The notes beneath the pieces were generated by a model. It was not told where the DNA came from. It searched no databases and worked only from the letters and a program-made list of their open reading frames with translations. From Deltaproteobacteria bacterium (GTDB lineage Bacteria; Bdellovibrionota; JACOXK01), in the NCBI GenBank assembly GCA_016186995.1, contig JACPKQ010000004.1, positions 1-19,786 of the forward strand: DNA of 19,786 bases, given 5' to 3'. Below, one piece after another: positions 1 through 19,696 of the stretch. Every line of letters starts with the position of its first letter. Positions within the stretch are counted from its first letter, which is position 1. The position numbers and the translations under genes were made by a program.

Positions 1-1849
1 TGTGTTCTTTTGAAAACGTTTTCTTATCTTTTCTAAAATCCTCAATTCTTTCATAAACCCCACTACGCTTTCCTTTTTTATTATAATTATAAAAACCTTC
101 CTGTGTTTTTTTGCCGTATCGCTCTGCGGCATACACAACTTCAAGAAGTTCACATCTTTGAAATCGTTCTTTGAAAGCCTCTACAACTGTATTGGAAGCT
201 TTAATGACAACATCCAACCCCACTTCATCTAAAAGAGTAAAAGGCCCCATAGGCATCCCAAAAGAAAGAGCTGCTTGATCAACTTCTTCGACTTGAGCCC
301 CTTCTTCAACTAAATAGGCGGCCTCATTCATATAGGGCATCAATATTCGATTCACCAAAAAACCAGGTCTATTTTTTACAACTAAAGGTAGTTTACCTAA
401 AACTTTTGCAAACTGTACAGTTGTTGCAACAACTTCATCTGTCGTCTTTTCCCCACGTATCACTTCTACTAAAGGCATTTTGTGAACAGGATTAAAAAAA
501 TGCATTCCTACAAATCTTTCTGGGTGTTTTAAATCACGAGCCATATCATCTACAGAGATAGAAGAAGTATTCGTTGCCAAAATAGTTGACTCTTTAACTT
601 TCGTTTCCAACTCAGCAAAAACCTTCTTTTTAAGATTTAAATCTTCGATAACAGCTTCAATGACAATATCTAAACTGCGAAAACCAGCGTAAGTTAAAGT
701 AGGAGAAATTTTTGCCCATTTATTTTCAAACTCATGCCTTTGTATTTTTTTTCGCTGTAAAGCTTTCGTAAAAACAGAGCGTGCTTGAGAAAGGCCACGC
801 ACAATGGCGCCTTCGTTAATATCTTTAAGGTATACTTCTAAATCTTTATAGGCTGCAAGTTGTGCAATGCCACCACCCATAGCTCCAGCCCCTAACACAC
901 CCACACTTTTTATAACACGTGGCACGCTATCACTTCGAACACCTTTGTCTTTTTTCATTTCTTCACTTAAGAAAAAGAGTTTTACAAGATTGCTAGAAAT
1001 AGGTGTGATGCACAGTTTTCCAAAAGTTTGTGCTTCAAAAAGAAGGGCTAACTTTTGAGATACAGAAACAGTTTTTTTAACAACTTGAATTGCCGCTAAA
1101 GGTGCGGGGTAATGCCCTTTTGTTTGAGAAAGAACGTTTTTTGTAGCTAAATGGAAAACAAGTGCTTTTCCTAAAGGGTTTTTTTCTAAAAGATAGTAGA
1201 AAAGATTTTTCTTTCCTTTAAAACCTTTTTGTGCCTTTTTAAAATTTTTATTTTTAATAAATTGAGCAGCTTTTTCCAAAAGAAATTCGTAAGGCACAAC
1301 ATCATCAGCCAAACCTATGTACCCTGCCTTTTTTCCTGAAACAGTTCCACCCGGTAAAATAATTCCTAAAGATTGTTGCAGCCCAATAAGTTTTGGCAAA
1401 CGCACACAACCACCCATGCCAGGAATAAAACCAAGTTTAACCTCAGGTAAACCTAAAACTGTTTTTGGGGAATCTGTTGCAATGCGATAATCACACGCAA
1501 GGGCTAGTTCAAGCCCACCGCCTAAACAAGCGCCATGAATGGCGGAAACAATAGGTTTTGAAAAACATTCTACTTCATCTGCAAAGGCTTGTGCATCGCG
1601 TGAAAGCTTTTCACCTTGTTCTTGTGTTTTAATGGTTTGGAAAAAGCTAATATCCACCCCTGCTATAAAAATATCTTTTTTCCCGCTATAAAAAATAACA
1701 GCTTTGACATCTTTATGAGATTCTAAACTTTTAAGATGATTTCTAAAATCATCCATGAGATCTAAAGTAAGTTTATTTACCTTTTCACCTGGCAAATCAA
1801 ATTTAAGATAGGCAATATGATTTTCAACGTGCACACTTAAAGCTTTCAT
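1..1849 (-). CDS. fadJ: FadJ/FadB-type fatty-acid oxidation multifunctional protein, C-terminus beyond window edge
   Basis: Bifunctional enoyl-CoA hydratase / 3-hydroxyacyl-CoA dehydrogenase, the alpha subunit of the beta-oxidation complex. I translated the minus strand from ATG at 1849 and found no stop down to base 2, giving 616 residues; the family is about 715 long, so roughly the last 100 are outside. The crotonase domain (about 1-190) has IAGVDI, the oxyanion-hole stretch HGACLGGGLE with Glu114, and GLPEVKLGFIPGMGG with Glu136, the two expected catalytic glutamates. The NAD-binding motif GVLGAGAMGGG follows near residue 315, the dehydrogenase His motif MHFFNPVHKMPLVEV near 446, and the C-terminal domain opens with NRPGFLVNRI near 487. 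Its ATG overlaps the thiolase stop by four bases (ATGA), with GGAG just upstream, so the two are probably translationally coupled. FadJ rather than FadB is preferred because the partner thiolase is FadI-like and lies upstream. Confidence 0.93.
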   Translation of the reverse strand, partial: MKALSVHVENHIAYLKFDLPGEKVNKLTLDLMDDFRNHLKSLESHKDVKAVIFYSGKKDIFIAGVDISFFQTIKTQEQGEKLSRDAQAFADEVECFSKPIVSAIHGACLGGGLELALACDYRIATDSPKTVLGLPEVKLGFIPGMGGCVRLPKLIGLQQSLGIILPGGTVSGKKAGYIGLADDVVPYEFLLEKAAQFIKNKNFKKAQKGFKGKKNLFYYLLEKNPLGKALVFHLATKNVLSQTKGHYPAPLAAIQVVKKTVSVSQKLALLFEAQTFGKLCITPISSNLVKLFFLSEEMKKDKGVRSDSVPRVIKSVGVLGAGAMGGGIAQLAAYKDLEVYLKDINEGAIVRGLSQARSVFTKALQRKKIQRHEFENKWAKISPTLTYAGFRSLDIVIEAVIEDLNLKKKVFAELETKVKESTILATNTSSISVDDMARDLKHPERFVGMHFFNPVHKMPLVEVIRGEKTTDEVVATTVQFAKVLGKLPLVVKNRPGFLVNRILMPYMNEAAYLVEEGAQVEEVDQAALSFGMPMGPFTLLDEVGLDVVIKASNTVVEAFKERFQRCELLEVVYAAERYGKKTQEGFYNYNKKGKRSGVYERIEDFRKDKKTFSKEH

Positions 1850-3141
1850 ACATTCTCCAAGAGTATGGCAGCACCTTGACCACCCCCTACACAAAGGGTT
1901 GCAAGTCCTCTTTTTGTATTACGTCTTTGCATTTCATTCATAAGAGTCAGCACAAGACGTGTTCCTGAAGAGCCTACCGGATGACCCAAAGCAATAGCAC
2001 CCCCATTGACGTTTAAAATGTTGGAATCGATTTTTGAAAGCGGGTATTCAATTCCCTTTTCTTCTTGCAGTTTTCTACTTTCAAATATTTTAAGGTTAGC
2101 AAGAACTTGTGCTGCAAAAGCCTCATTCATTTCTACAAGATCGATATCTTCCATTTTTAAATTTGTTTTTTTAAGTAAAACAGAGGTTGCATAACTGGGG
2201 CCCAATCCCATCCGTGCAGGATCAAGGCCTGCGAAAGCATATTGAACCATTCTTGCTTTAGGTTTAAGCCCCAACTCTTGTGCCTTTTCTTCTGTTGTGA
2301 CAAGGAGGGCTGCTCCCCCATCTGTAATAGGACATGAATTACCTGGCGTTACCGTTCCATGCTTTCTATCAAAAAAGGGTTTTAGCTTTGCGAGCGCTTC
2401 TAAAGTTTGATTTTTGCGTGGCCCCACGTCCTGAGATACAGCTTTATTTTCTAAAAAGAGAGGTACAATTTCATCTTTAAACAACCCTTTTTCTTGTGCT
2501 TGAGTTGTTTTCTCGTGACTTAAAAGAGCAAATTGATCTTGTTCTTCACGTGTTATTTTAAACTCTCTTGCCAAAACCTCTGCTGTTTGTCCCATGTTAA
2601 GGCCACATACTGGATCTCTTAACCCCTGTACAAGGGCTATAATAGGTTTTAAAAAATTCAAGCGAAACTGAGAGAAAACACCTATTTTTTGAAGTGGCGT
2701 TTTAGCACGTGAAAGTTTTGCAAGAAAATTAGAAAATGTTTTTGGAAAAAGAAGAGGAATATTACTCATGGATTCTATTCCACCGCAAAGATAAAGCTCT
2801 CCTTGCCCCGCTTGGATACTATCATAAGCACTTGCAATAGATTGCATTCCAGAAGCGCAATTTCTTTGAACGGTAAAGGCAGGAACTTTTTGTGGAATTC
2901 CCGCTCTTAAAGCAACTACACGAGTCACGTTTGCGGCATCTGCAGGTTGGCCTATATTTCCAAAAATGATTTCATCTAAAAGACTTGGATCAAGATTTGT
3001 TCGAGCAAGAGTTTCTTTAGCAACGGTAACACCTAAATCAACCACTGAAACATCATTAAAATCAGCCCCAGATTTTACGTAGGGTGTTCGGACCCCATCA
3101 ACAATGACAACCGTTTTTGACATATGTTTATGACTTAACAC
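1846..3141 (-). CDS. fadI: FadI-type acetyl-CoA acyltransferase (3-ketoacyl-CoA thiolase)
   Basis: Thiolase that releases acetyl-CoA from 3-ketoacyl-CoA, the last step of the beta-oxidation cycle, working with the adjacent FadJ. The 431-residue protein has the acylated nucleophile in NCASGMQSI (Cys95), NEAFAAQ, the base in NGGAIALGHPVG (His387) and the second active-site Cys in CVGGGQGAA (Cys417). Length and the long middle segment match FadI (about 436) better than FadA (about 387). The long reading starts at GTG 3141, preceded by AGGTGAAAGGTGA. An internal ATG at 3123 gives MSKTVVIVDGVRTP, closer to where thiolases usually begin, but has no ribosome binding site at normal spacing. I keep GTG with moderate confidence. 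It is the first gene of a fadI-fadJ operon; a repeat block lies immediately upstream and no clear promoter could be picked out. Confidence 0.95.
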   Translation of the reverse strand: MLSHKHMSKTVVIVDGVRTPYVKSGADFNDVSVVDLGVTVAKETLARTNLDPSLLDEIIFGNIGQPADAANVTRVVALRAGIPQKVPAFTVQRNCASGMQSIASAYDSIQAGQGELYLCGGIESMSNIPLLFPKTFSNFLAKLSRAKTPLQKIGVFSQFRLNFLKPIIALVQGLRDPVCGLNMGQTAEVLAREFKITREEQDQFALLSHEKTTQAQEKGLFKDEIVPLFLENKAVSQDVGPRKNQTLEALAKLKPFFDRKHGTVTPGNSCPITDGGAALLVTTEEKAQELGLKPKARMVQYAFAGLDPARMGLGPSYATSVLLKKTNLKMEDIDLVEMNEAFAAQVLANLKIFESRKLQEEKGIEYPLSKIDSNILNVNGGAIALGHPVGSSGTRLVLTLMNEMQRRNTKRGLATLCVGGGQGAAILLENV

Positions 3142-3170
3142 TCACCTTTCACCTGGTCAACGCTCGTCAC

Positions 3171-3227
3171 AAAAGATAGGGAAAGGGCTTCCCTCGGGTG
3201 CGGCACCAACCCTGATTCATATCTTCA
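3171..3227. repeat. Family B repeat, left-end fragment
   Basis: About 57 bases, from AAAAGATAGGG through CTTCCCTCGGGTGCGGCACC to ATATCTTCA. It matches 11572-11629 closely (same CTTCCCTCGGGT, GCACCAACCCTGATTCATATCTTCA) and resembles the left end of the complete family B element directly after it. Only the left part is present, so it looks like a partial or tandem copy. Confidence 0.7.
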
Positions 3228-3383
3228 TAAGAGATAGGGATAGTACTTGCCTCGGGTACGGCGTCACTTTTTTCCTGCGAAAAAGTGCGCCTCGCGTCTC
3301 AGGCAATCTGCTGCATATACTATGCAGACCAAGCCAGATTGCCTTCCGACACGACCCTCTGCAAGCACTACCCCTATCTCTTA
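3228..3383. repeat. Family B repeat, complete copy with 23-bp terminal inverted repeats
   Basis: The ends 3228-3250 and 3361-3383 are inverted repeats pairing at 21 of 23 positions (outer TAAGAGATAGGG against CCCTATCTCTTA). Inside are a hairpin at 3261-3290 (GCG, bulged T, CACTTTTT, loop TCCTGCG, AAAAAGTG, CGC) and a nested hairpin at 3301-3344 (AGGCAATCTG / CAGATTGCCT enclosing CTGCATA tac TATGCAG). The whole element could fold on itself. Related partial copies are at 3171-3227, 7084-7127 and 11572-11738. It is visibly richer in G+C than the neighbouring genes. It could be a non-autonomous mobile repeat or a structured RNA; the sequence alone does not decide. Confidence 0.8.
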
Positions 3384-3455
3384 AACTAAATTTTTCTATG
3401 AGACATAAAGATCCCAGTTTCAGATATTCATCATTATTCGTAGCCATGTGAAAAA

Positions 3456-3607
3456 ATGGTTACTGTCTGGAGCGGAAATAAAGCGCAGCACACGGTTTGT
3501 AAATATTCAAAACTGTGCATCCCGGACAGTGCTTTAGTACTTACGGGATAACAAAGAACTCATGTGGGATAACTACAGCGAGCCATGAAGCGAAAGATAG
3601 TAACCAT
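3456..3607 (+). repeat. Family A structured repeat, copy 1
   Basis: Bounded by terminal inverted repeats ATGGTTACTGTCT (3456-3468) and AGATAGTAACCAT (3595-3607), extended by A/T runs to 17 positions of which 16 are Watson-Crick and one is G.T. A central hairpin has the form ATCCCG-gac-AGTGC-TTTA-GTACT-tac-GGGAT (about 3519-3549). The stretch before it, GCACA..TTTG with CAAA..TGTGC, can also pair. The 5' flank TATTCGTAGCCATGTGAAAA is shared with copy 4, and the 3' flank TTTTTAAGAACTTAAGG is shared in variant form with the other copies. Confidence 0.8.
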
Positions 3608-3644
3608 TTTTAAGAACTTAAGGTTATTACAGGAAAAAGAACCA

Positions 3645-3676
3645 TTTCAAGAATCTAAGTTCGAGTGTTCTTGAAA
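3645..3676. repeat. 9-bp perfect inverted repeat upstream of the PspC gene
   Basis: TTTCAAGAA (3645-3653) and TTCTTGAAA (3668-3676) are perfect inverted copies with a 14-base spacer, 30 bases before the PspC-gene start. The left arm is also part of the recurring CCATTTCAAGAA.CTAAGT boundary motif of family A. A TTTTTT run follows at 3685-3690, so it could act as a terminator of leftward-independent plus-strand readthrough or as an operator; neither can be shown here. Confidence 0.45.
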
Positions 3677-3706
3677 GTTGGTGGTTTTTTGATATAGCTC
3701 TAGAAG

Positions 3707-4099
3707 ATGAAAATTCTTTACAGGTCAAAGACTAACAGAAAAATAGCAGGTGTGTGCGGCGGAATTGGAGAGTACTTTGGCATTGATCCAACTATTGTAC
3801 GTATTATTTGGCTTTCTGCCATTCTTCTCGCAGGCACAGGCATTCTCATTTATATTATTGCTTGGCTTGTCATGCCAGAAGGCCCTAACGAAATAGTCAT
3901 TTCTTCACATAAACCATTTCGACGATCTTCAAAACATCGGATTATTGCAGGAGTGTGTGGCGGACTTGGGGAATACTTTGAACTGGATCCTGTTATTTTT
4001 AGACTGGGGTTTGTTTTTTTAGCTATTACTTCTTTCGGGTGGGGAATTCTTATTTATATTATTCTTTGGATAGCAGTTCCACTTCAAAAATCTTCTTAA
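3707..4099 (+). CDS. Small membrane protein with two tandem PspC domains
   Basis: A 130-residue protein made of two copies of the PspC domain, residues about 3-57 and 70-127. Each has the signature AGVCGGxGEYF followed by a hydrophobic membrane segment containing GILIYIIxW. The two halves are obvious internal duplicates (IAGVCGGIGEYFGIDP and IAGVCGGLGEYFELDP). PspC domains occur in envelope-stress phage-shock proteins and in many stand-alone small membrane proteins; the classical PspC has one. No pspA, pspB or pspF lies nearby, so a phage-shock role is inferred from the domain only. The ribosome binding site is weak (TAGAAG directly before ATG). It sits downstream of the repeat block and runs convergently into the EamA permease, with only two bases between their stops. 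Confidence 0.88.
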   Translation: MKILYRSKTNRKIAGVCGGIGEYFGIDPTIVRIIWLSAILLAGTGILIYIIAWLVMPEGPNEIVISSHKPFRRSSKHRIIAGVCGGLGEYFELDPVIFRLGFVFLAITSFGWGILIYIILWIAVPLQKSS

Positions 4100-4101
4100 A
4101 G

Positions 4102-5061
4102 TTAAAATTGAAAAATTCTAAAAACGGGCTTTAAGGTATGCACAATTATTTTTTGAATTTTGATAGTTTTAAAATATTCTTTTGGAACTTGAATCAATAA
4201 TATTCCCATTAAAATACCAACAGACCCAACCCATTCATTCAAAGATAAAATATGGTTAAATATCACATAGTCTAAAATAAGAGTTATGATAGGACACACA
4301 TAGGTTGAAGCACTTGTTTTCACTGAGCCCCAGGTTTGAAGAATTTTAAAAAACATAAGCCAGGCAAGTGCTGTTGAAAAAAAACTCAAATAAATAACAG
4401 CCGCTAGCGCCTTTTTGGAAAGTAGTAATGTTGTTATAGGAAACCCTCTTTCAAAAAATAAAGTTACAAAAAATAAGAAAACGATAGAAGCAAGCTGCTG
4501 TTGGAAAAGATTACCAAAAAAATCAACCTTGTTATGCGATTTTAAAATAGAACGGGTTATAAGAACACCCACAGCATAGGAAAACGCAGCAATAACAACA
4601 GCTCCAACACCCCATATCAACCCATCAGATGAATTCATTTGTAATGTTGGAAGAAAAATCAAAAGGACGCCTAAAAAACATAAGATCAACCCTAAAACCT
4701 TCGCTAATGTTACCTCTTCATCATTCTTTAAAAAATAAAAACTCAAAATAAAAGCCCAAAGGGGAACTGTAGCAACAAGAATAGCGGAAAGACTTGGACT
4801 TACAACTTTCTGAGCCCAAAATAAAATGGCAAAAGGCAAACCCTGTAAAAAAATTCCAGCCAACCAGGATTTCCATCTCAGTTCCTTATGCACTGACATA
4901 TTTTTATTAAGCAAGAGAAAGAAAACAAAAAGAAAGAGTCCTGCGAAAGAGACTCGCATAAAGGCTGAAAAAACAACAGGAAGATCAGAAATAAGTATCT
5001 TGATGGCTATATAAGAGCCACCCCAAAACACAGAGATGAGTGAAAAATAAAGTAAATTCAT
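4102..5061 (-). CDS. EamA/DMT-superfamily permease
   Basis: A 319-residue, very hydrophobic protein of the drug/metabolite transporter superfamily. It has two EamA repeats and about ten predicted membrane spans. Characteristic are the N-terminal FWGGSYIAIK, the RVSFAG stretch, and a second half (about 145-295) with FSYAVGVLITRS and STALAWLMFFKILQTWGSVKTSASTYVCPIITLILDY written here only in part: ALAWLMFFKIL and TYVCPIITLILDY. These proteins export amino acids, metabolites or drugs; the substrate cannot be read from sequence. The C-terminal tail after VPKEYF is a short charged/hydrophobic extension. It is transcribed divergently from the ABC exporter, with 109 bases between starts. No convincing ribosome binding site precedes the ATG. 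Confidence 0.9.
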   Translation of the reverse strand: MNLLYFSLISVFWGGSYIAIKILISDLPVVFSAFMRVSFAGLFLFVFFLLLNKNMSVHKELRWKSWLAGIFLQGLPFAILFWAQKVVSPSLSAILVATVPLWAFILSFYFLKNDEEVTLAKVLGLILCFLGVLLIFLPTLQMNSSDGLIWGVGAVVIAAFSYAVGVLITRSILKSHNKVDFFGNLFQQQLASIVFLFFVTLFFERGFPITTLLLSKKALAAVIYLSFFSTALAWLMFFKILQTWGSVKTSASTYVCPIITLILDYVIFNHILSLNEWVGSVGILMGILLIQVPKEYFKTIKIQKIIVHTLKPVFRIFQF

Positions 5062-5170
5062 AAATTTTTAAAAGAATCCCTCTTAGAAAATAGAAAACGC
5101 AAGCTTATAACATATTGCTTTATTTAAATCAAAGTTTTAGTCTATAAGCGGGAATGACAAGTAAAAATCT

Positions 5171-6088
5171 ATGAACCACGTTATTGAAGCTCAAGGGCTT
5201 ACTAAAAAATTTCAAAACTTTGAAGCTGTACGGGGTATTGATTTTAAAATCCGTGAAGGCACGTGTTTTGGTTTTTTAGGCCCTAATGGGGCAGGCAAAA
5301 CAACAACTATAAGTATGCTCTACTGCTATGTCACCATCACCGAAGGTGAACTCACTATTTTAGGCCTACATCCAAAAACCGATGAGAGAAAAATAAAATC
5401 TCTACTGGGAATTGTTCCTCAAGATAATAATTTAGATCCTGATCTGACGGTTTATGAAAACCTCGTTGTTTATGCAAGATATTTTGGAATTTCACACACA
5501 CAATCTCGCCCTAAAATTGAAGAGCTTCTTCGTTATTTTAACCTCTCAGAAAAAAAACACGTCCGTATTACCCAACTTTCAGGCGGGATGAGAAGACGAC
5601 TCGTGTTAGCTCGTGCTTTTATACATGACCCTCACATCATTATTCTTGATGAACCTACGACAGGGCTTGATCCACAAGCAAGACATCTTATTTGGGAAAA
5701 ACTGGAAAATTTAAAAGCTCTTGGAAAAACTTTTGTTCTCACAACCCATTATATGGATGAAGCTGAGCGACTTTGTGATGAACTTGTTATGATGGATCAT
5801 GGAAAAATCTTGGCTCAAGGAACGCCAAGCGAGCTTATCTTGAAACATATTGGAAAAGAAACTATTGAAGTTAAAGTTCCCTCCCGTGAAGCACAGTTGA
5901 TTTTGAAGCACATCGAGGGGCTTCCCTTTAGCTATGAGCAAACAGAAGCACGGCTTTTTATTTATACTCATGATGGCGGAGATGTACTTAAAAAAATCAT
6001 TGAGCTCAAAGAATATGAATTTGTTCACCGTCGCAGTTCACTTGAAGACGTTTTTTTAAAACTGACAGGAAGGAAATTAAGAGAATGA
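5171..6088 (+). CDS. ABC exporter ATPase, NodI/CcmA-like
   Basis: ATP-binding subunit (305 residues) of an ABC-2 type exporter. Visible in order: Walker A GPNGAGKT (37-44), Q-loop VPQDNNL (Gln84), signature LSGGMRRRL (136-144), Walker B IIILDEPTTGLDP (catalytic Glu161) and H-loop TTHYMDEAERL (His193). A C-terminal domain (about 220-305) ends with SSLEDVFLKLTGRKLRE, typical of NodI-like ATPases, which are also about 305 long. The ATPase stop overlaps the permease start by four bases (ATGA), with AGGA upstream. Substrate unknown; NodI/NodJ-like pairs also occur in bacteria that have nothing to do with nodulation. A possible weak -10 box TATAAG lies at 5143-5148 without a clear -35. Confidence 0.95.
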   Translation: MNHVIEAQGLTKKFQNFEAVRGIDFKIREGTCFGFLGPNGAGKTTTISMLYCYVTITEGELTILGLHPKTDERKIKSLLGIVPQDNNLDPDLTVYENLVVYARYFGISHTQSRPKIEELLRYFNLSEKKHVRITQLSGGMRRRLVLARAFIHDPHIIILDEPTTGLDPQARHLIWEKLENLKALGKTFVLTTHYMDEAERLCDELVMMDHGKILAQGTPSELILKHIGKETIEVKVPSREAQLILKHIEGLPFSYEQTEARLFIYTHDGGDVLKKIIELKEYEFVHRRSSLEDVFLKLTGRKLRE

Positions 6089-6843
6089 TTTCACTTAAAA
6101 TATTTCGAATCTGGCAACGCCATATGATCGTGTGGCGAAAATATCTTAAAGAAGCTATTTTAGGAACAACAGGTGAACCCATTATTTATCTTTTAGCCTT
6201 AGGCTATGGAATGGGGCACTACATTGGTGACATGAATGGGCTCACTTATATTCAATACATTGCACCGGGGCTTTGGCTCTCTTCTGCTATGGGTGGAGCG
6301 AGTGCTGAATGCACCTATGGTGCTTATACTCGAATGACAACCCAACAAACTTATAATGCAATTTTAGCCGCCCCTATCAATACACATGAAATTGTAGGGG
6401 CTGAAATCCTTTTTGGGTCTACACGCAGTTTTATTAATTGCATGGTCATCTTAATTGTTTTTACTTTTGCTGGGCTTGTAAAAACACCTCTTCTTATTCT
6501 CATGCCTTTTTTAGGGCTTATTACAGGTGTTTTTTTTGCCTCTGTTGCGATGACTGTCACGGCCTGGTCAAAAGGATATGAGTTTTTTATTTACTATTAC
6601 ACCCTTTTTGTAACCCCTAGTTTTTTTCTTTCAGGTATTTTCTTTCCAATCGAACATTTTCCACAATGGCTTGAACGCATAGCTTTAACCCTTCCTTTAA
6701 CTCAAATGGTTTATGTTGCGCGTGAACTTTTTATTGGAAAGTTCGAGATGTTTTCTTTGTTTCGATGTGCCTACGTTCTCCTATTAGGATTATTCTTTTT
6801 TTGGATCTCTACAAAAATGATCCACAAACGGCTTATAAAATAG
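6085..6843 (+). CDS. ABC-2 type permease, NodJ-like
   Basis: Membrane subunit (252 residues) of the exporter whose ATPase is directly upstream. About six hydrophobic spans of the ABC2_membrane type. Features shared with NodJ/YadH-like permeases: early EPIIYLLALGYGMG, YIQYIAPGLW, the conserved AAPINTHEIVGAEI loop, and the segment FFLSGIFFPIEHFPQWLERI before the last spans. The start codon lies inside the ATPase stop, so the two should be made in fixed proportion as a two-subunit exporter. No dedicated substrate-biosynthesis gene lies next to it; the nearest envelope genes are kilobases away. Confidence 0.93.
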   Translation: MISLKIFRIWQRHMIVWRKYLKEAILGTTGEPIIYLLALGYGMGHYIGDMNGLTYIQYIAPGLWLSSAMGGASAECTYGAYTRMTTQQTYNAILAAPINTHEIVGAEILFGSTRSFINCMVILIVFTFAGLVKTPLLILMPFLGLITGVFFASVAMTVTAWSKGYEFFIYYYTLFVTPSFFLSGIFFPIEHFPQWLERIALTLPLTQMVYVARELFIGKFEMFSLFRCAYVLLLGLFFFWISTKMIHKRLIK

Positions 6844-6913
6844 GTTTTTGAAATGGCATAATAACAACCTTGGTTCTGAGTATGGAGAGTATTTTTTCGA
6901 TACTTAAGTTCTT

Positions 6914-6984
6914 GATGGCCTGGAGGTTCCTCAGGGGCCCCTCCGCCCAGTGTGGATCCTCCCCTTCAAAACCTCCAGCCCATC
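6914..6984. repeat. GC-rich 15-bp imperfect inverted repeat
   Basis: Arms GATGGCCTGGAGGTT (6914-6928) and AACCTCCAGCCCATC (6970-6984) pair at 14 of 15 positions around a 41-base loop that contains the palindrome AGGGGCCCCT. Strongly C-rich on one strand and unlike the AT-rich surroundings. It starts inside a family A boundary motif. No related second copy is visible in the window. Confidence 0.6.
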
Positions 6985-7023
6985 TTCACATGAACACGAA
7001 TTTAAACTCTCTCATGGACACGT

Positions 7024-7079
7024 GTCATTGCGAACGAATGTGAACCAATCCCATCATCGTTTTACTCCCTCGCGATGAC
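7024..7079. repeat. Short GTCATTGCGA palindromic repeat
   Basis: GTCATTGCGA (7024-7033) and TCGCGATGAC (7070-7079) are inverted with one mismatch. This is the common dispersed GTCATTGCGAGG-type repeat; another member, with internal hairpins, is at 14760-14858. It directly abuts a truncated family B end, suggesting insertion or recombination at that junction. Confidence 0.6.
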
Positions 7080-7083
7080 AGTC

Positions 7084-7127
7084 TGGCCTTCCGACACGAC
7101 CCTCTGTAAGCACTATCCCTGTCTTTT
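7084..7127. repeat. Family B repeat, right-end fragment
   Basis: Matches the right end of the complete element at about 3340-3383: TGGCCTTCCGACACGACCCTCTG, given here in part as CTTCCGACACGACCCTCTG, then AAGCACTATCCCTGTCTTTT. The left half and both internal hairpins are missing. Confidence 0.65.
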
Positions 7128-7192
7128 GCCCTATAGCTTTATTTCGAGTTTAGATTCTTGCACAAACACGACAAAATTCGTAACTATGCTCG

Positions 7193-7348
7193 GAAATGGT
7201 CAGTGTCTGGAGCGGAAGTAAAGCGCAGCCCATGTTTGAAAACACTCAGAACCCTCTCATCCCGGACAGTGCTTTAGCACTTACGGGATACAAAAAATCC
7301 AGTATGACAAGTGTAGCGAGCCATGAAGCGGAAGACACTGACCATTTC
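7193..7348 (+). repeat. Family A structured repeat, copy 2
   Basis: Perfect 16-bp terminal inverted repeats, GAAATGGTCAGTGTCT (7193-7208) and AGACACTGACCATTTC (7333-7348). Compared with copy 1, the inner TTACTG has become TCAGTG on the left and both arms changed together. The central hairpin is ATCCCG..AGTGC TTTA GCACT..CGGGAT. The 3' boundary motif CCATTTCAAGAACTTAAGTT ends on the first base of the ppdK stop codon (7361-7363, minus strand). Confidence 0.82.
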
Positions 7349-7360
7349 AAGAACTTAAGT

Positions 7361-9964
7361 TTACGATGACATGAGTGCTGCGCGAGCAGCGGCCAATCTT
7401 GCAACAGGTACCCTGTAAGGCGAGCAACTGACATAATCAAGCCCATTTTCAAAACAAAATTGAATGGATGCTGGATCTCCGCCATGCTCCCCACAAATAC
7501 CTACTTTTAAAGTGGGGTTGGCGGCCCTTCCATTCTGAGTTGCCATTGTAATCAGCTTTCCAACACCCTCTTTATCTAAAGAAATAAAAGGGTTTTCTGG
7601 TAAAATATTTTTTTGGACATATTCAAATAAAAAACTTCCTGCATCATCCCTACTTAAACCAAAGGTTGTTTGGGTTAAGTCATTCGTTCCAAAAGAAAAG
7701 AAATCAGCCTTTTTGGCAATTTCATCTGCCGTAAGAGCGGCACGAGGAAGTTCAATCATAGTACCTACAAAATACTTAACAGAAACATTATTCTTTTTAA
7801 GAATATCGTCACAGATTGCTCGAATATCCTTTTCGATAAATTCATACTCTTTAACATGAGAAATAAGAGGAATCATAATTTCAGGCCTCACATAAAGTCC
7901 CTCATTTTTTTTAAGCTCACACACTGCCTCCATCAGAGCTTGAACCTGAACATGATAAATTTCTGGATAAGAAATCCCAAGTCGACAGCCTCTGTGCCCA
8001 AGCATAGGATTATATTCCTGTAATGAAGCAATTCTTCTTTTTACTTCTTCCTCTTCACAACCTAAATCCTTCGCGAGGTCTTTAATGCCTTTTTCATCAT
8101 GGGGTAAAAACTCATGCAAAGGAGGATCTAAAAGTCTTACTGTTACAGGAAGGGGTGCCATAGCCCTAAAAATCCCAAGAAAATCCTCTTTCTGATAGGG
8201 AAGGATTTTTTCCAAAGCTTTTTTTCTCTCACTTTGGGTTTTTGAAAGAATCATTTCTCTCACAGCCAAAATGCGGTGTTCATCAAAAAACATATGTTCT
8301 GTACGACATAACCCGATACCCTCTGCTCCAAATTCACGTGCCTTGTAAGCATCTTGAGGTGTGTCTGCATTGGCTCTTACTTTCATAGAACGAAAATGAT
8401 CTGCCCATGCCATTAAAGTTTTAAACTCTTCTCCGCTCTCTGCCTCAATGGTTGAAACTTTTCCTTCAAAAACATCCCCCGTCGAACCATCAATGGTTAA
8501 AATATCTCCTTCACGATAAATATTTTCTCCAACTTGGAGACTTTTCTTTTTTTCATCAACAATAAGTTCTCCACACCCTACTACACAAGGTTTGCCCATC
8601 CCTCGAGCTACGACAGCAGCATGACTCGTCATTCCCCCTAATGTTGTTAAAATGCCACAAGCTGCATTCATACCATGAATATCTTCAGCCGATGTTTCCC
8701 TTCGAACCAAGAGGCATTTTTTTCCTTCTTCTTTCAATACAAGAGCATCGTCAGGGTTAAAAACAATTTCTCCACTCACAGCCCCTGGGCTTGCAGGAAG
8801 TCCTCTTGCTATTTTTTTCTTTTTCGTCTTAGGATCTATTCGAGGGTGAAGCATCTGATCAATATGTTCTGGTTTCACTCTTAAAACAGCCGTTTTTTGA
8901 TCAATAATTCCTTCTTCAACCATATCCACAGCAATTTTTATTTGAGCTTGCGCAGATCGTTTCCCAGTACGTGTTTGAAGTAAAAAAAGTTCACCATTTT
9001 GGATGGTAAATTCAATATCTTGCATATCTTTATAATGACCTTCAAGACGACTTTGGAGTGAAAGAAACTTCTTATAACAAGCTTTGTGTTTTTCTTTCAT
9101 AACATGTAAAGAAAGAGGGGTTCTCAAGCCTGCAACAACATCTTCTCCTTGGGCATTTTCTAAGAATTCTCCAAATATTTCTTTTTCCCCAGTTGAAGGA
9201 TTTCTTGTGAAAGCAACCCCTGTTGCACTGTTTTCCCCTAAATTTCCAAATACCATGGCTTGAACAGTGCACGCTGTTCCTAATTTGGAGGGAATATTAT
9301 TAAGCTTTCGATAGGTTTCAGCCCGAGGTAAATTCCAAGAATCAAAAACAGCCCCGATGGCCTTCCACAACTGCTGATGAACGTCTTGTTCAAAATCTTT
9401 GCCTGTTTTTTCTCGAATCAAAGCTTTAAAACTTTGTACAGTCTGTTTTAAGCTGGTAGATGTTCCGGCCAAATTTTCAAAAAGTTTGGCTTCAATCCCT
9501 AAAACAACACTTCCGAACATTTGAAGAAACCGTCTATAACAATCATAAGCAAATCTTTCATTGTGAGAAGTTTCAACTAAACCCTCTACTGTTTCATCAT
9601 TCAGTCCTAAATTAAGAACTGTTTCCATCATACCTGGCATACTTGCTTCCGCCCCACTTCTTACAGAAAAAAGAAGTGGCATCTTCCTATCTCCAAAACG
9701 AAGATTTAAAAGCTTTTCAAGTTTTTTAATATTGTAAAGAACTTCTGTTTTTAAATTCTGAGATATTCTTTTATCTGAGTTAAGATAGTGTACACACTCA
9801 TTTGTTGTAATGGTAAACCCAGGAGGAACAGGAATACCAAGAAGTGTCATTTCGGAAAGATGAGCGCCCTTCCCACCAAGAATTTTGGTCATAGAGGCAG
9901 AACCTTCTGCATACCCATTACCAAAAAAATACACTTTTTTTGTTTTTAAAAGCTTTGGATCCAC
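7361..9964 (-). CDS. ppdK: Pyruvate, phosphate dikinase
   Basis: Interconverts pyruvate, ATP and phosphate with PEP, AMP and pyrophosphate; cytoplasmic, in gluconeogenic or glycolytic carbon flow. The 867 residues are normal for the family (about 870-880). The N-terminal nucleotide-binding part begins VYFFGNGYAEG and LGGKGAHLSEM. The phosphohistidine swivel domain has GGMTSHAAVVARGMGKPCVVGC with catalytic His448, and the conserved Thr two residues before it. The PEP/pyruvate barrel has GLCRTEHMFF, GTMIELPRAALTA, SFGTNDLTQTTFGLSRDD and GICGEHGGDPASI with its conserved Cys. The start is GTG at 9964, chosen because GGGAGG lies seven bases upstream and MDPKLLKTKKVYFFG fits the family's N-terminus. 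Family A repeats lie on both sides in opposite orientation, with the same end facing the gene. Upstream on the same strand is glyQS. Confidence 0.97.
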   Translation of the reverse strand: MDPKLLKTKKVYFFGNGYAEGSASMTKILGGKGAHLSEMTLLGIPVPPGFTITTNECVHYLNSDKRISQNLKTEVLYNIKKLEKLLNLRFGDRKMPLLFSVRSGAEASMPGMMETVLNLGLNDETVEGLVETSHNERFAYDCYRRFLQMFGSVVLGIEAKLFENLAGTSTSLKQTVQSFKALIREKTGKDFEQDVHQQLWKAIGAVFDSWNLPRAETYRKLNNIPSKLGTACTVQAMVFGNLGENSATGVAFTRNPSTGEKEIFGEFLENAQGEDVVAGLRTPLSLHVMKEKHKACYKKFLSLQSRLEGHYKDMQDIEFTIQNGELFLLQTRTGKRSAQAQIKIAVDMVEEGIIDQKTAVLRVKPEHIDQMLHPRIDPKTKKKKIARGLPASPGAVSGEIVFNPDDALVLKEEGKKCLLVRRETSAEDIHGMNAACGILTTLGGMTSHAAVVARGMGKPCVVGCGELIVDEKKKSLQVGENIYREGDILTIDGSTGDVFEGKVSTIEAESGEEFKTLMAWADHFRSMKVRANADTPQDAYKAREFGAEGIGLCRTEHMFFDEHRILAVREMILSKTQSERKKALEKILPYQKEDFLGIFRAMAPLPVTVRLLDPPLHEFLPHDEKGIKDLAKDLGCEEEEVKRRIASLQEYNPMLGHRGCRLGISYPEIYHVQVQALMEAVCELKKNEGLYVRPEIMIPLISHVKEYEFIEKDIRAICDDILKKNNVSVKYFVGTMIELPRAALTADEIAKKADFFSFGTNDLTQTTFGLSRDDAGSFLFEYVQKNILPENPFISLDKEGVGKLITMATQNGRAANPTLKVGICGEHGGDPASIQFCFENGLDYVSCSPYRVPVARLAAARAALMSS

Positions 9965-10013
9965 TCTGATACCTCCCTATCATCCTGAACCGAATCAAAC
10001 TTAGGTTCTTAAA

Positions 10014-10153
10014 ATGGTCACTATCTTCCGCTTCATGGCTCGCTGTGTTTGTCCCACGCGGACTCCTTGTCATCCCTCAAGAAGGCAGGGATCCAGTATT
10101 CATTTTTTTACAAACCGTGTGCTCCGCTTGACGCAGCACCTTAGAGTAACCAT
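10014..10153 (-). repeat. Family A structured repeat, copy 3 (inverted, chimeric centre)
   Basis: Read on the minus strand it has the family A left flank ATGTGAAAAAATGGTTACT and right end CGAGCCATGAAGCGGAAGATAGTGACCAT. The left part between differs, and the centre carries a different hairpin, ATCCCT-GCCTTCTTG-AGGGAT, in place of the AGTGC/GCACT one of copies 1, 2 and 4. The terminal arms are less perfectly paired (mismatches inside ATGGTYACT). It fills the 224-base glyQS-ppdK gap. The boundary motif reads AACTTAGGTTCTTAAAATGG at 9998-10017. Confidence 0.72.
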
Positions 10154-10188
10154 TTTTTCACATAAATTCGCATTATTTCCCTGATAAC

Positions 10189-11508
10189 TCATTTAAACTT
10201 ATCTTCGAAATAATTTTCTAACTGATCTATTGATATCCTATCTTGCTTCATGCTATCACGATCTCTGACGGTCACTTTTTTATCTTCTAAAGAATCAAAA
10301 TCAATCGTAACACAATAAGGAGTTCCTGCTTCATCTTGTCTTCGGTAGCGCTTTCCAATACTTCCCGCCACATCAAATTGAGAAAAATATTTTTTAGAAA
10401 ATCTATTTTTAATATTGTGTGTAAGATTCATAAGATCGTCCTTCTTCGACAAAGGAAAAAAGGCGATCTGAACTGGAGCAAACTGAGGCTTTATTTTAAG
10501 AACCACTCTTTTTTCGTCTTTCACTTCTTCTTCGTGATAGGCATCACAGAGTACTGCGAGTAAAGTTCGATTCAGCCCAACTGCTGTTTCAATGACATAA
10601 GGTATATATTTTTCTTTTGTATCGTCATCAAGATATTGAAGTTTTTTTCCGGAAAATTCTTCGTGTCTTGAAAGGTCATAATCTGTTCTATTATGAATTC
10701 CTTCAAGTTCACTCCATCCAAAAGGAAATTCATATTGAACATCAAAAGCCTGCTTCGCATAGTGAGCTAGTTGATCTTTTCCGTGCTCATAAAAGCGCAA
10801 CTTTTGAGGATGAATCCCCAAACTTTTGTGCCATTTTATCCTTTCTTCTTTCCAGTAATCAAACCACTTCATATCTTCTTTTGGATTTACAAAAAACTGC
10901 ATTTCCATTTGCTCAAATTCACGAGTTCTAAAAATAAAATTGCCTGGGGTAATTTCATTTCGAAAGGCTTTTCCAACTTGAGCAATACCAAAAGGGGTTT
11001 TCTTTCGCATGGTGGTTTGGACATTTAAAAAATTGACATAACTTCCTTGTGCTGTCTCGGGGCGCAAAAAAATGCGACTTGCCTCTGTTTCTACAGGCCC
11101 CATGTAAGTTTTAAACATGAGATTAAATGCTCTTGCTTCTGTCAACTCTCCTCCACACTCCCCTGGGTGTTTACTTGGTTTTTCAGGACAGCAGGCCTCA
11201 CTTAAAGCATCAGCACGAAATCGTGCCTTACATTTTTTGCAATCAATTAAAGGGTCTGTAAACCCTTCTACGTGCCCAGAGGCTTCCCACACCCGTGGGT
11301 GCATCAGAATACTGGCATCCACTCCCTCAATATCATCACGAAGGGTCATGGTATCCCACCAATATCGTTCAATATTTTTTTTAAGCTGTACTCCTAGTGG
11401 ACCATAATCCCAACAGGAATTAAGACCACCATAGATTTCACTACTTTGGAAGATAAACCCACGTCTTTTGCAAAGGGAAACAAGGGTTTTCATATCAAGG
11501 AGGGACAT
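10189..11508 (-). CDS. glyQS: Glycyl-tRNA synthetase, single-chain class II type
   Basis: Charges tRNA-Gly with glycine. At 439 residues this is the homodimeric class II enzyme related to archaeal and eukaryotic GlyRS, not the alpha/beta GlyQ + GlyS type of most proteobacteria. N-terminal [19 protein letters not shown] and DYGPLGV match the family. A Cys-rich insertion has Cys90, Cys93, Cys107 and Cys118 as likely zinc ligands. Motif 2 region [14 protein letters not shown] (147-160) is followed by [30 protein letters not shown] given here only as [10 protein letters not shown] and REFEQME. Motif 3 is [14 protein letters not shown] near 310, then a C-terminal anticodon-binding domain from about 345. 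The start is uncertain: neither ATG 11508 nor ATG 11493 has a good ribosome binding site. It lies upstream of ppdK on the same strand. Confidence 0.96.
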
Positions 11509-11571
11509 GCAAAATTCGTATCACGAGGCCCCTCTGTTTTCAACAGTTCTTGAAATAGTCTGTGGCACAGG

Positions 11572-11738
11572 AAAAGATAAGGGGAGTACTTCCCTCGGGT
11601 ACGGCACCAACCCTGATTCATATCTTCACTGGTATCTTTATTCCAGCCCGCGTCAAATTCCCCTGCGAGGAATTTGCGCTTAACCTCAGCCTCGCTCTTT
11701 TTTACTTCGTAAAAAAGCCATGCCCGCTCGGCTTCCGA
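11572..11738. repeat. Family B-related repeat, left end plus two hairpins
   Basis: Bases 11572-11629 repeat the left-end fragment at 3171-3227. Then comes hairpin 1 at 11650-11679: GCG, bulged T, CAAATTCC, loop CCTGCGA, GGAATTTG, CGC. It corresponds to 3261-3290 in layout, bulge and loop, but most of the stem has different bases that still pair. Hairpin 2 at about 11688-11733 has an outer AGCC/GGCT and inner CTTTTTTAC ttc GTAAAAAAG, followed by TTCCGA as in the first locus. The right terminal inverted repeat of family B is missing here. Confidence 0.7.
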
Positions 11739-11810
11739 ATGACTTACATAAAGACACCAGTTTCAGATATTCATTAATCTTTAATCCATTATTCGTAGCC
11801 ATGTGAAAAA

Positions 11811-11962
11811 ATGGTTACTGTCTGGAGCGGAAGTAAAGCGCAGCCCACGGTTTGTAAATATTCAAAACTTTGCATCCCGGACAGTGCTTTAGCACTTACG
11901 GGATCAAGCGGAGTTAGTGTTGGATAACTACAGCGAGCCATGAAGCGGAAGATAGTAATCAT
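11811..11962 (+). repeat. Family A structured repeat, copy 4
   Basis: Left arm ATGGTTACTGTCT (11811-11823), right arm AGATAGTAATCAT (11950-11962), differing from perfect pairing only by two G.T positions. Central hairpin ATCCCG-gac-AGTGC-TTTA-GCACT-tac-GGGAT. The upstream flank (CCAGTTTCAGATATTCATTA to CATGTGAAAAA) is shared with copy 1, so the relative order of B-type and A-type parts is the same at the two loci. The 3' flank TTTTAAGAATTTAAGTATCG is the boundary motif. Confidence 0.8.
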
Positions 11963-11982
11963 TTTAAGAATTTAAGTATCGA

Positions 11983-12053
11983 AAAATGATCACTGTGCCT
12001 GAGAAATATACTAGGTAACTTTATGTAAATTAGCCATTTCAAGAACGTAGAGT
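11983..12053. repeat. Possible degenerate family A relic
   Basis: AAAAATGATCACTGTGCC near 11984 resembles a family A left arm (ATGGTCAGTGTCT in copy 2), and CCATTTCAAGAACGTAGAGT at 12034-12053 resembles the right boundary motif. The centre is lost, leaving about 70 bases. This may be a deletion derivative. Confidence 0.35.
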
Positions 12054-12102
12054 ACGAGGAATAGTTGCGAAGAATGTTTTAATACAATAAAGTAACAACG
12101 CT

Positions 12103-12651
12103 ATGAACAAAGCCGTTTTCCTAGATAGAGATGGAACTATTAATAAAGAGGTATCTTATCTTAACTCGATAGACCAAATAGCAATCCCTCAAAACAGTAT
12201 TAAAGCTCTTCAACTGCTTCAAAAAGACGGGTTTAAACTTATAGTTACAACAAATCAATCAGGTATTGCTCGAGGTTTTTTAACTGAACAAACGCTCCAC
12301 AATATTCACAAATACTTTGACATTCTATTTTCATCACACAACATAAAAATAGACGATTACTTTTACTGCCCTCATCTTCCAGAAGAAAACTGCCTTTGCA
12401 GAAAACCCAAAACAAAAATGATAGAAGAAGCACTCAAAAAATACAATATTGATAAATCACGATCTTTTTTTATTGGAGATAAAATGGTGGATGTCGAATG
12501 TGGATACAATGCCGGGATAAAAACAATTCTTGTTCTTACAGGCTATGGACAAAGTTTTAAAAAAGAAGCCCAAAAAAAAGTTTCATTCATAGCAGAAGAT
12601 CTTTACGCCGCCGCCTCGTGGATTATGAGTAAACCTTCTCAATCTCTTTAA
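12103..12651 (+). CDS. gmhB: GmhB-like HAD phosphatase (heptose 1,7-bisphosphate 7-phosphatase)
   Basis: HAD-IIIA phosphatase of 182 residues that removes the 7-phosphate from glycero-manno-heptose 1,7-bisphosphate during ADP-heptose synthesis for the LPS inner core. Seen: HAD motif I FLDRDGTINKE with nucleophile Asp8 and acid/base Asp10, motif II TTNQSGIARG, the zinc loop CPHLPEENCLCRKPK with Cys89, His91, Cys97 and Cys99, and motif III/IV FIGDKMVDVECG with Asp126 and Asp130. The zinc loop is typical of GmhB but also of the histidinol-phosphatase half of HisB. A stand-alone protein with no his genes nearby favours GmhB. No other heptose gene is in the window. It stands between glyQS and recO on the opposite strand to both, and its last 29 bases overlap the end of recO. 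No strong ribosome binding site. Confidence 0.85.
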   Translation: MNKAVFLDRDGTINKEVSYLNSIDQIAIPQNSIKALQLLQKDGFKLIVTTNQSGIARGFLTEQTLHNIHKYFDILFSSHNIKIDDYFYCPHLPEENCLCRKPKTKMIEEALKKYNIDKSRSFFIGDKMVDVECGYNAGIKTILVLTGYGQSFKKEAQKKVSFIAEDLYAAASWIMSKPSQSL

Positions 12652-13369
12652 TATATCTCACTGATTTAAAATCATATCCGTGCTGAAAAGAAAAATAAGA
12701 GTGTAAAAAATCTTGAAGTTTCAAATTCTCTGGATCTTTTAATTTTTCTATTTCAACAGGCTCATTCCTTAAAAAATCAAAAACAGATTTTTCTAAACGC
12801 CAGTCTATTTTTTTGCCTTGTGAACATGAAAAACAATAAAGCCCACCTTGTATAAAAGATAAATCATAGTATTCCTGAAAAGATATTTTCTTCTGACATC
12901 CTAGACACGATTCTAATAAAGGGAATAAGCCTATTTTTTTTAAAAGGAATATTTCAAAAAAACGAATATATTTTTTGAAACCAAGTTCTGTATTTAACCG
13001 TCCCAACACATTTTTAAAAACATTAAAAAGAGAAGGATCCCCTTCTCTTTCAGGTGTCATTTTCATAATGAGTTCACACAAATATCCCGCATAAGCACAT
13101 CTTAAAGGTGAGCTTTTCATAGATTCAAAGTTTTCGATAAGCTCAACATGTTTGAAGAAAAAAAGCGATGTGCGTTTTTTTTCTTCAAAGTAAAGGTTTA
13201 CCAAAGAAAAATAATCCAAACGTCCACCAAATCTTTTACGACTGTGTTGTGCCGCTTTTGCCATTCCTGTGACTCTTCCTTTTTTTTCAGAATAAACAGT
13301 GACAATCTTATCAAGCTCTCCATAAGGTCTAAAATTGAGTACAACCGCTTGAGATGATTCTAGTGACAT
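12623..13369 (-). CDS. recO: DNA repair protein RecO
   Basis: Recombination mediator that loads RecA onto SSB-coated single strands with RecR and anneals DNA in the RecF pathway. The 248 residues are normal. The N-terminal OB-fold (about 1-80) has the typical opening QAVVLNFRPYGELDKIVTVYSEKKG, written here in part as VVLNFRPYGELDKIV, and the basic GMAKAAQHSRKRFGG. The helical domain carries a zinc-finger set CLGC (Cys155, Cys158) and CFSC (Cys179, Cys182). Its ATG is one base after the mgtE stop, with no good ribosome binding site of its own, so it is probably translationally coupled to mgtE. Its 3' end overlaps the convergent GmhB-like gene. Confidence 0.93.
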   Translation of the reverse strand: MSLESSQAVVLNFRPYGELDKIVTVYSEKKGRVTGMAKAAQHSRKRFGGRLDYFSLVNLYFEEKKRTSLFFFKHVELIENFESMKSSPLRCAYAGYLCELIMKMTPEREGDPSLFNVFKNVLGRLNTELGFKKYIRFFEIFLLKKIGLFPLLESCLGCQKKISFQEYYDLSFIQGGLYCFSCSQGKKIDWRLEKSVFDFLRNEPVEIEKLKDPENLKLQDFLHSYFSFQHGYDFKSVRYIKEIEKVYS

Positions 13370-13370
13370 A

Positions 13371-14735
13371 TTAAATATGTAAAAATAAATGAACTAAATT
13401 AAAAAAGATGAGAGTGCTTACAACATCAATAGCTGTTGTAATAAAAGGCCCTGTTGCTAAAGCAGGATCAAATTGAAACTTTTTAAAAATAATAGGGAGA
13501 AAAGCTCCTAAAACAGCTGCTATTGTCATCACTAAAAAAAGGGATGTACCCACAACAATACCTAGACGAGGATGCTCTCCTGAAATCAGCTGCACACCAA
13601 AACCCAAAACAACTCCGTAAAGAAGTGCAAGCACACCCCCTACTTTTAACTCTTTAAAAAGGACTTTCCACAGCTGATCAAGAACAACACGACCTGTTGC
13701 AAGCCCCCGCACAATAACAGCAGAGGTTTGTGTTCCTACATTCCCTCCCATACCTAAAATAATAGGAATAAATCCAGAAAGTACCGCCATTTTGCCTATA
13801 GTTGATTGAAATTTACCAATAATAGAAAGTGCAACAAGTCCACTTAAGAATGAAGCCAGAAGCCATGGAAAACGTGCACGAACACTTTTTAAACTTGAAA
13901 GATCTAAAACATCCACATTCCCCACAGAAGCCATTTTTAAAATGTCTTCTGTGGCTTCTTCTCTCATAACATCGATCACGTCATCAACTGTTACAATACC
14001 CACTAGTTTATTGTTCTCATCGACAACGGGAACAGCTAAAATATTATATTGGCTGACCAACTTTGCAACTTCTTCTTGGTCTTCATGAGTAGTCACACGA
14101 ATCACATCAGTACTCATAATCTCACTCAGCTTTTTTTGAGGTTTGACTGTGAGAAGTTGTCTTAAAGAAATAACACCCACAAGTTGCCCAATACTATTTA
14201 CAACATAAATATAGAAAACCATCTCTTGCTCGCTCGACTCTTCTTGTAACTTTTGAATAGCTTCACCTACTGTCATATTCTCATCGAGTGCAAAAAACTG
14301 AGGGTCCATGATACCCCCAGCAGAATCTTCTTCATATTGGAGAAGATCTTCAACCTCTTCAGACTGTGCTGCTTCCATGAGTTTCAGAATTTCTGAAGAC
14401 ATGGGTTCTGGTAAAAGAGTTAAAATATCAGCTACATCATCTGAGCTCATCTCTTTAAAAATTCTGCATACTTTTTCTGTCTCAAGCCCTTCTAAAACAA
14501 GAGGAATATCCCCTTCTTCCATCTCACTTAAAACATCAGCTTGAATGTGAGAAGATTTTATAAATGAAAAAACAGCTTGCTTTTCTTTAGGATCTAAATG
14601 GTGAAGCATCAATGCGACATCTGAAGCATGAGTCTTATCGATAAGATTTTTAAGATGTGGTACAGCCTGACGTCTTAAAAGTTTTTTCGACGTTTCAACT
14701 AAAAGTTTTATTTTCTCAGCTTGAGCTAATTGCAT
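13371..14735 (-). CDS. mgtE: Magnesium transporter MgtE
   Basis: Mg2+-gated Mg2+ channel/transporter of the inner membrane. The 454 residues match the family (about 450). The N domain (about 1-130) is a helical repeat superdomain with MLHHLDPKEKQAVF and LTLLPEPMSSEIL. A pair of CBS domains follows (about 140-260, e.g. VVNSIGQLVGVISLRQLL and VVDENNKLVGIVTVDDVIDV). The membrane domain (about 285-454) has the conserved GMGGNVGTQTSAVIVRGLATG and, in the last helix, Asp437 in TTAIDVVSTLIFF, corresponding to the pore aspartate of the family. A TAGAG-like ribosome binding site precedes the ATG. No Mg2+-sensing leader (M-box) can be recognised upstream; that region is a palindromic repeat. Confidence 0.96.
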   Translation of the reverse strand: MQLAQAEKIKLLVETSKKLLRRQAVPHLKNLIDKTHASDVALMLHHLDPKEKQAVFSFIKSSHIQADVLSEMEEGDIPLVLEGLETEKVCRIFKEMSSDDVADILTLLPEPMSSEILKLMEAAQSEEVEDLLQYEEDSAGGIMDPQFFALDENMTVGEAIQKLQEESSEQEMVFYIYVVNSIGQLVGVISLRQLLTVKPQKKLSEIMSTDVIRVTTHEDQEEVAKLVSQYNILAVPVVDENNKLVGIVTVDDVIDVMREEATEDILKMASVGNVDVLDLSSLKSVRARFPWLLASFLSGLVALSIIGKFQSTIGKMAVLSGFIPIILGMGGNVGTQTSAVIVRGLATGRVVLDQLWKVLFKELKVGGVLALLYGVVLGFGVQLISGEHPRLGIVVGTSLFLVMTIAAVLGAFLPIIFKKFQFDPALATGPFITTAIDVVSTLIFFNLVHLFLHI

Positions 14736-14759
14736 AAAGACACTCTAAAAACTTCTTTC

Positions 14760-19643: not shown

Positions 19644-19696
19644 AAGAATCAAGTGGTTATACACCACTCTTAAAGTTTTTTCTAATTGTTTTTCCC

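Follow-up and report, generated by a model that had tools for sequence, protein, structure and literature searches.

Dispersed hairpins with a conserved core and variable stems in a class of Bdellovibrionota

Family A in the window and its genome

The window analysed here is the whole 19,786-nucleotide stretch of contig JACPKQ010000004.1 (positions 1 to 19,786, forward strand) from the Deltaproteobacteria bacterium assembly GCA_016186995.1 (Bdellovibrionota, JACOXK01). The genome containing it is referred to as G000 (1.68 Mb, 30 contigs, 93% complete). Four copies of a hairpin repeat, family A, were found in the window, at the places and in the orientations proposed by a first-pass annotation of the sequence, and all four sit between predicted genes. 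These hairpins belong to a dispersed group in one poorly known bacterial class. By glycyl-tRNA synthetase, the closest named relative is an assembly labelled Deltaproteobacteria, with 69% identity. Related genomes G001 to G007 were compared, with G011 as an outgroup; several of the assemblies are incomplete. Families were searched for with patterns and blastn, followed by pair counting, and L-numbers denote individual loci.

Copy 1 occupies 3436–3622 of the plus strand, as delimited from an alignment of 40+ copies. It consists of a shared left outer end ATTCGTAGCCATGTG (3436–3450), a variable left arm AAAAAATGGTTACTGTCT (3451–3468), a core half H1 GGAGCGGAAATAAAGCGCAGC (3469–3489) that is kept in every full copy and in G002 and G004, a central hairpin ATCCCGGACAGTGCTTTAGTACTTACGGGAT (3519–3549), a core half H2 GCGAGCCATGAAGCGAAAG (3578–3596), a variable right arm (3595–3611) and a shared right outer end AAGAACTTAAG (3612–3622). 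The central hairpin is a replaceable module, different or absent in other copies. Copy 2 (7191–7359, plus strand) has its left arm at 7193–7208, H1 at 7209–7229, central hairpin at 7259–7289, H2 at 7316–7334, right arm at 7333–7348 and right end AAGAACTTAAG at 7349–7359, the last adjoining the end (7361) of a PPDK-like open reading frame. Copy 4 (11806–11976, plus strand) has its left arm at 11808–11823, H1 at 11824–11844, central hairpin at 11874–11904, H2 at 11933–11951 and right arm at 11950–11965. Copy 3 is inverted (9998–10158, minus strand), with arms at 10145–10156 and 10011–10022 and H2 at 10025–10043. Its arms pair over 12 bp only, with one G.T, because the inner part of the left arm is ACTCTAAGG; in the centre, a generic palindrome GTCATCCC..GGGATCC has taken the place of the hairpin. 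This type of palindrome, CTGGATCCC..GGGATGACA (10060–10105 in the centre of copy 3), is also seen at many G000 loci and in the centres of other copies.

The covariation between TTACTG and TCAGTG arms reported earlier is real. Copy 2 pairs perfectly over 16 bp, and copies 1 and 4 depart from perfect pairing only by G.T (one in the 17 bp of copy 1, two in the 16 bp of copy 4). The arms are not, as had been thought, the ends of the element: in the copy alignment homology goes on outward into shared ends, ATTCG..ATGTG on the left and AAGAACyTAAG on the right.

The family is also much larger than the four copies first described. Copy 1 gives 44 blastn matches in G000, and the H2 core half GCGAGCCATGAAGCGGAAG is found at 57 places with up to 3 mismatches (reversed control 0). 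Once duplicates are removed there are 55 distinct core places, and thus at least 55 members. The fixed part is a bipartite core, GGAAGTAAAGCGCAGC ... GCGAGCCATGAAGC, around a replaceable centre and within variable arms, with the outer ends shared. The usual centre is ATCCCGGACAGTGCTTTAGCACTTACGGGAT; others are CTGGATCCC..GGGATGACA palindromes or a short tctatgaggccttgccgaataaaga (L159, L163, L164, L166). Arm types include TTACTATCT/AGATAGTAA, TTGCTATCT/AGATAGCAA, TCAGTGTCT/AGACACTGA, TCTCAAGTCT/AGACTTGAGA and TCTATGTCT/AGACATAGA, plus an unrelated type GCTAACCTTTCAAATTTTGC/GCAAAATTTAGGAAGGTTAGC.

Compensated changes are present in 11 of 17 arm pairs. Across all copies in the genome, paired cells make up 92.9% of the named structure (87.0% in shuffles), both sides are changed in 71 cells (20 in shuffles) and the covariation score is 0.189 (0.094 in shuffles), and none of 500 shuffles reaches these values. 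The signal is lost when the partner is slid by 1–3 columns. When arms are exchanged among copies, mean pairing falls from a score of 30.5 to 21.9, with 0 of 10,000 permutations as good. Thus, the genome-wide search and covariation check proposed in the first-pass annotation yielded many copies and covariation above every shuffle. Three loci (L028, L030, L032) combine arms of two different types, which points to recombination between family A copies.

The family A copy at L172 of G000 has nested within it, just upstream of the core half at 802, a repeat of another kind, CCATGAGAGCGTAGG..CCTACTCAGAACCAAGGT, whose right end is similar to the right ends of family A and of a second family, B, described below. 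A further palindromic family is present in the window (3164–3395, 7086–7140 and 11565–11730) and elsewhere in G000 (L171), with arms AAGAGATAGGGATAGTACTTGCCTCGGGT / ACCCTCTGCAAGCACTACCCCTATCTCTT flanking an inner hairpin TGCGAAAAAGTGCG.

Conserved cores and locus-specific stems in related genomes

Core A is found at 4 places in G002 and 13 in G004. In these genomes the core is the sole sequence common to the loci, apart from a few inner arm bases in G004. The stems are 18–37 bp long, pair near-perfectly and have another sequence at each locus. The inner loop is largely genome-specific, being CCCTTCAAGGG in G002 and mostly GGCGCCGTGTCGCAAGACACGCCGCC in G004. An additional core-A hairpin of G002 (L284) has 19-bp arms.

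A second core, B, is carried in the window by a minus-strand element (6903–7001) that has the family A outer ends around a different core GGGAGGATCCACACTGGGCGGAGGGGCCC, with arms GATGGGCTGGAGG / CCTCCAGGCCATC; the core B sequence of this element is GGGAGGATCCACACYGGGCGGAGGGGCCC. Core B occurs 16 times in G000, 2 in G002, 12 in G004, 4 in G005 and once each in G006 and G007, and in the class-mates it has its own arms at nearly every locus. Among 13 core B loci on different arms (G002, G004–G007), 82% of arm cells are paired (57% when shuffled), both sides are changed in 119 cells (42 when shuffled) and covariation is 0.686 (0.215 when shuffled), with 0 of 500 shuffles as high. All four Watson-Crick pair types are present along the stem. 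A search with only the shared right end showed this motif to be common; among the examples recovered with paired arms, nearly all beyond core A were core B.

A wide distribution of the elements is rejected. In the rest of the phylum the core A 15-mer (H2 half, single mismatch) is at control or background level, and 30 H2-half matches retrieved from other families all lack H1. Core B does not occur outside the class; it is absent from G001, G003 and the remainder of 368 genomes, with none elsewhere in the phylum.

Long inverted repeats were surveyed in 250 kb of G004, 245 kb of G003, 400 kb each of G002 and G011, and 197 kb of G001. In G004 and G003 the majority have one of a small set of recurring loops, which are cores A, B and C in G004 and cores E (CGGCATTG..CGAG) and F in G003. 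Arms of at least 20 bp number 11 in G004, 10 in G003 and 0 in G002, where examples are fewer and arms shorter. Only one inverted repeat with arms of at least 17 bp was found in G011, and two in G001. Among the genomes surveyed, long inverted repeats are therefore common only where such cores occur. Since recurrent loops abound in G003 and G004 and inverted repeats are scarce in G011 and G001, it is an architecture rather than one sequence that typifies part of the class: unrelated cores, A and B as well as C in G004 and E and F in G003, each cap near-perfect stems that differ between loci. Complementary stem halves that vary from locus to locus and among species suggest that one half is copied from the other or that both are selected jointly.

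Core C (L222 3513–3690 and L236 9597–9780) reads CCCTTCAGRACCGGCAGTCGCC..CTTCAGGG, is about 105–115 nt long and has locus-specific arms of 28–37 bp. G003 is without cores A and B; the recurrent cores peculiar to it are CGGCATTG..CGAG and CTAyAGGGAGTTGGAACGAGGAG, on long variable arms (L262 3474, L264 8005, L265 14847, L274 8541, L278 17033 and 17230, L267 104 and 9437). A common dispersed repeat, GTCATTCTGA..CAGGATGAC, lies between locus-specific inverted arms at two G003 loci (L264 641–774, L269 14722–14850). A perfect 56-bp inverted repeat at a contig start in G004 (L233 1–174) is probably an assembly artefact. As a source of the hairpins, assembly artefact is unlikely, because the same cores are seen repeatedly, both in assemblies made independently and at orthologous positions.

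Copies also lie inside genes. In G004, the core is in frame within a ComEC-like reading frame. Between fixed points, G004 has 67 residues where three orthologues from the same family, equal in length, have 48 (our own count from the alignment). The insert of 19 residues (57 nt) corresponds to the core with 11 nt to either side of it; the outer, imperfect arm pairing falls in native codons. At this sole usable insertion no target duplication was seen, and nothing was added beyond the core and its 11-nt arms. In G002, the core lies in the SelB frame and leaves it open; alignment of the SelB orthologues around the insert is too poor to fix its position. A recurrent peptide, GSKAQP..GRAMKR, is found in both the SelB and ComEC frames.

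The comEC insert, with its short inner arms and outer arms in native codons, is what would be expected if the core were a mobile unit inserting at the tips of existing palindromes, the arms being those of the target. Cores nested or swapped in other repeats also fit such insertion. However, long inverted repeats lacking a recurrent core are few in G003 and G004, so empty palindrome targets are scarce, and the arms still co-change after insertion, as described below. We consider insertion at palindrome tips improbable.

Stem change in place and the level of pairing

Two pairs of core B loci are orthologous between species: L243 (G005) with L257 (G004), and L244 (G006) with L245 (G007). L243 and L257 are orthologous over 2.2 kb at 71% identity, with the element in the small gap that separates a purS-like from a purQ-like gene (named from translations by eye). 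Their cores are identical at 28 of 29 positions and their arms at 39 of 72. In the stem, 16 pairs are unchanged and 9 are altered on both sides and still Watson-Crick. Between L244 and L245 the core is kept and 4 pairs are changed on both sides from Watson-Crick to Watson-Crick. Pooled over both comparisons, 17 changes are both-sided and 14 one-sided, a co-change of the arms well above chance (Fisher p = 3e-6). Of the 13 fully compensated (Watson-Crick to Watson-Crick) double changes, six are transversions, which excludes a G.U intermediate for these six. Since both arms co-change at orthologous loci while the core is kept, the stem has been rewritten after insertion with the hairpin retained. 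The first-pass proposal that pairing is kept by selection or by copying of the folded form gains support both here and from the unrelated arms of the relatives.

These observations are consistent with dispersed hairpins in which a short conserved core stands at the tip of a stem free in sequence, the arms being copied by intrastrand template switching, a reading to which we give a probability of about one half. The core hairpin would fold the nascent DNA strand back during replication, and after this snap-back one arm would be re-copied from the other. Such re-copying would correct the stem in blocks and leave the core untouched, and the stem could lengthen into flanking host DNA. The core, or the core with its inner arm, would also have reached new sites, an in-frame one in comEC among them. 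In G000, complete units of core and arms that have common outer ends would have multiplied into about 40 similar family A copies. Constancy of the core is probably due to selection for the fold or to a protein that reads the core. Arm origin, mobility and function of the hairpins are inferred here.

Under selection at the RNA level, G.U should outnumber A.C on the active strand. The tight class-mate stems hold 607 Watson-Crick pairs, 9 G.U and 9 A.C, which argues that complementarity is held at the DNA level. By core, the G.U to A.C ratios are 7:2 for A and 2:7 for B, neither significant. Since G.U and A.C are equally rare, RNA-level selection alone does not account for pairing in the class-mates.

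Several points weigh against template switching. In G000 the G.U to A.C ratio is 23:6 for family A, whose copies are related (about 11:6 as distinct changes, by our own count), and 8:5 for core B. By tally, 33 copies are in the sense orientation of neighbouring genes and 16 in the opposite one. The G.U excess and this bias hint at selection on RNA or on a single strand. Some stems have decayed: at L252 1501 and L254 1501, core B has a decayed stem or has lost one arm, and a core can therefore outlive its stem. No switch event was seen directly, the orthologous comparison covers only two loci, and ancestral states are not known there. Template switching does not need a conserved, unpaired, purine-rich core. 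Moreover, no spread enzyme was found among the Y1 transposase and reverse transcriptase families searched.

The hairpins may instead be a structured RNA or single-strand DNA element that spread in the past, with a core read by a protein and compensatory substitutions keeping the stem. Besides the excess and bias in G000, this would account for the conserved, unpaired, purine-rich internal loops, for a core nearly unchanged between genera, and for the folding z-scores of the plus strand, which are −5.8 for copy 1 and −3.1 for copy 2, against −2.1 for the opposite strand of copy 1. The equality of G.U and A.C in the class-mates and the six transversional double changes do not fit, and near-perfect stems of up to about 37 bp exceed the pairing expected under RNA selection. 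A known RNA family is also rejected, since Rfam 15 gives no gathering-score match and scans with lax E-values were empty or trivial. Such an element is a tentative explanation for the hairpins as a whole. DNA-level copying is the best account of the class-mates, and in G000 some single-strand selection may also act.

In a stronger form of the copying account, also no more than possible in our judgement, the core is a replicating hairpin seed. It would land, the polymerase would snap back and make an inverted copy of neighbouring host DNA, and the stem would be rewritten later, several unrelated cores having arrived at this behaviour or sharing it.

Known repeat families and wider meaning

Hairpin stems are known to be created and repaired by template switching with the loop left intact (Monttinen and Loytynoja 2022, PMC8794818). 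The hairpins here resemble those cases in their block compensatory changes with loop and fold kept: DNA-level compensatory changes that go beyond G.U steps, with the loop unchanged, are present at the two orthologous loci. They differ from those cases, which are RNA genes, in forming a dispersed class with a conserved core and arms of 18–37 bp.

Rickettsia palindromic elements (RPEs) are palindromic repeats of about 150 bp with many copies and several families, some in frame in genes (PMC10969869). By description the present elements are alike in all these respects, including in-frame copies with a recurrent peptide. However, the class-mate stems are locus-specific and the core alone is shared, and in-frame insertion in genes holds for the comEC and selB copies only, most G000 copies being intergenic. 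The stem-loop families of Cozzuto et al. 2008 (PMC2267715) are also repeated sequences with a common predicted fold, often intergenic. Those were clustered by sequence similarity, whereas the stems described here have no common sequence between loci.

REP and REPIN sequences (PMC3116915) are multicopy extragenic palindromes in mosaic arrangements, and the present elements share these features. Being dispersed, mostly intergenic, about 150 bp long, bounded by inverted repeats and present in both orientations, they could be REPINs or miniature inverted-repeat transposable elements (MITEs) moved by a RAYT or another transposase that recognises inverted repeats. Like MITEs, they are short and have no gene inside, and a MITE-like element had been suggested for the four window copies. 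The usual MITE reading is unsupported, because conservation is lowest in the inverted repeats and highest in the loop core. No parent transposon was found among the Y1 and reverse transcriptase families, the only ones searched, and no target duplication was seen at comEC, the one usable insertion. The Y1 transposase (PF01797) was not found in G000 (93% complete), G003, G005 or G007, all of which carry such elements, yet G001 has Y1 genes and neither core A nor core B. RAYT/REPIN is therefore rejected, there being no Y1 gene in G000, no tracking in relatives and no conserved stem, and movement by any transposase of this kind, other families of which were not searched, is very unlikely.

A reverse-transcriptase origin is rejected, since PF00078 occurs only in G001, with none in G000 or G002–G007. 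Integron attC sites are rejected on anatomy, from general knowledge: the elements are in both orientations, are scattered and have no shared attC boxes. Carriage by phages or plasmids is rejected, as the core patterns are absent from viral contigs and from phage and plasmid records. Transcription terminators are rejected because divergent genes flank many of the copies (13 of the 44 with core A in G000). No description of hairpin families with a conserved core and free stems was found in the open-licence papers searched.

Covariation is usually taken as proof of selection on RNA structure. With many loci, independent cores and orthologous pairs, these hairpins are a natural set in which DNA copying can be separated from RNA selection by counts, of G.U against A.C and of transitions against transversions. 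If copying is true, it would be a source of false covariation signal, and also a simple route for palindromic repeats to survive in compact genomes and reach coding genes.

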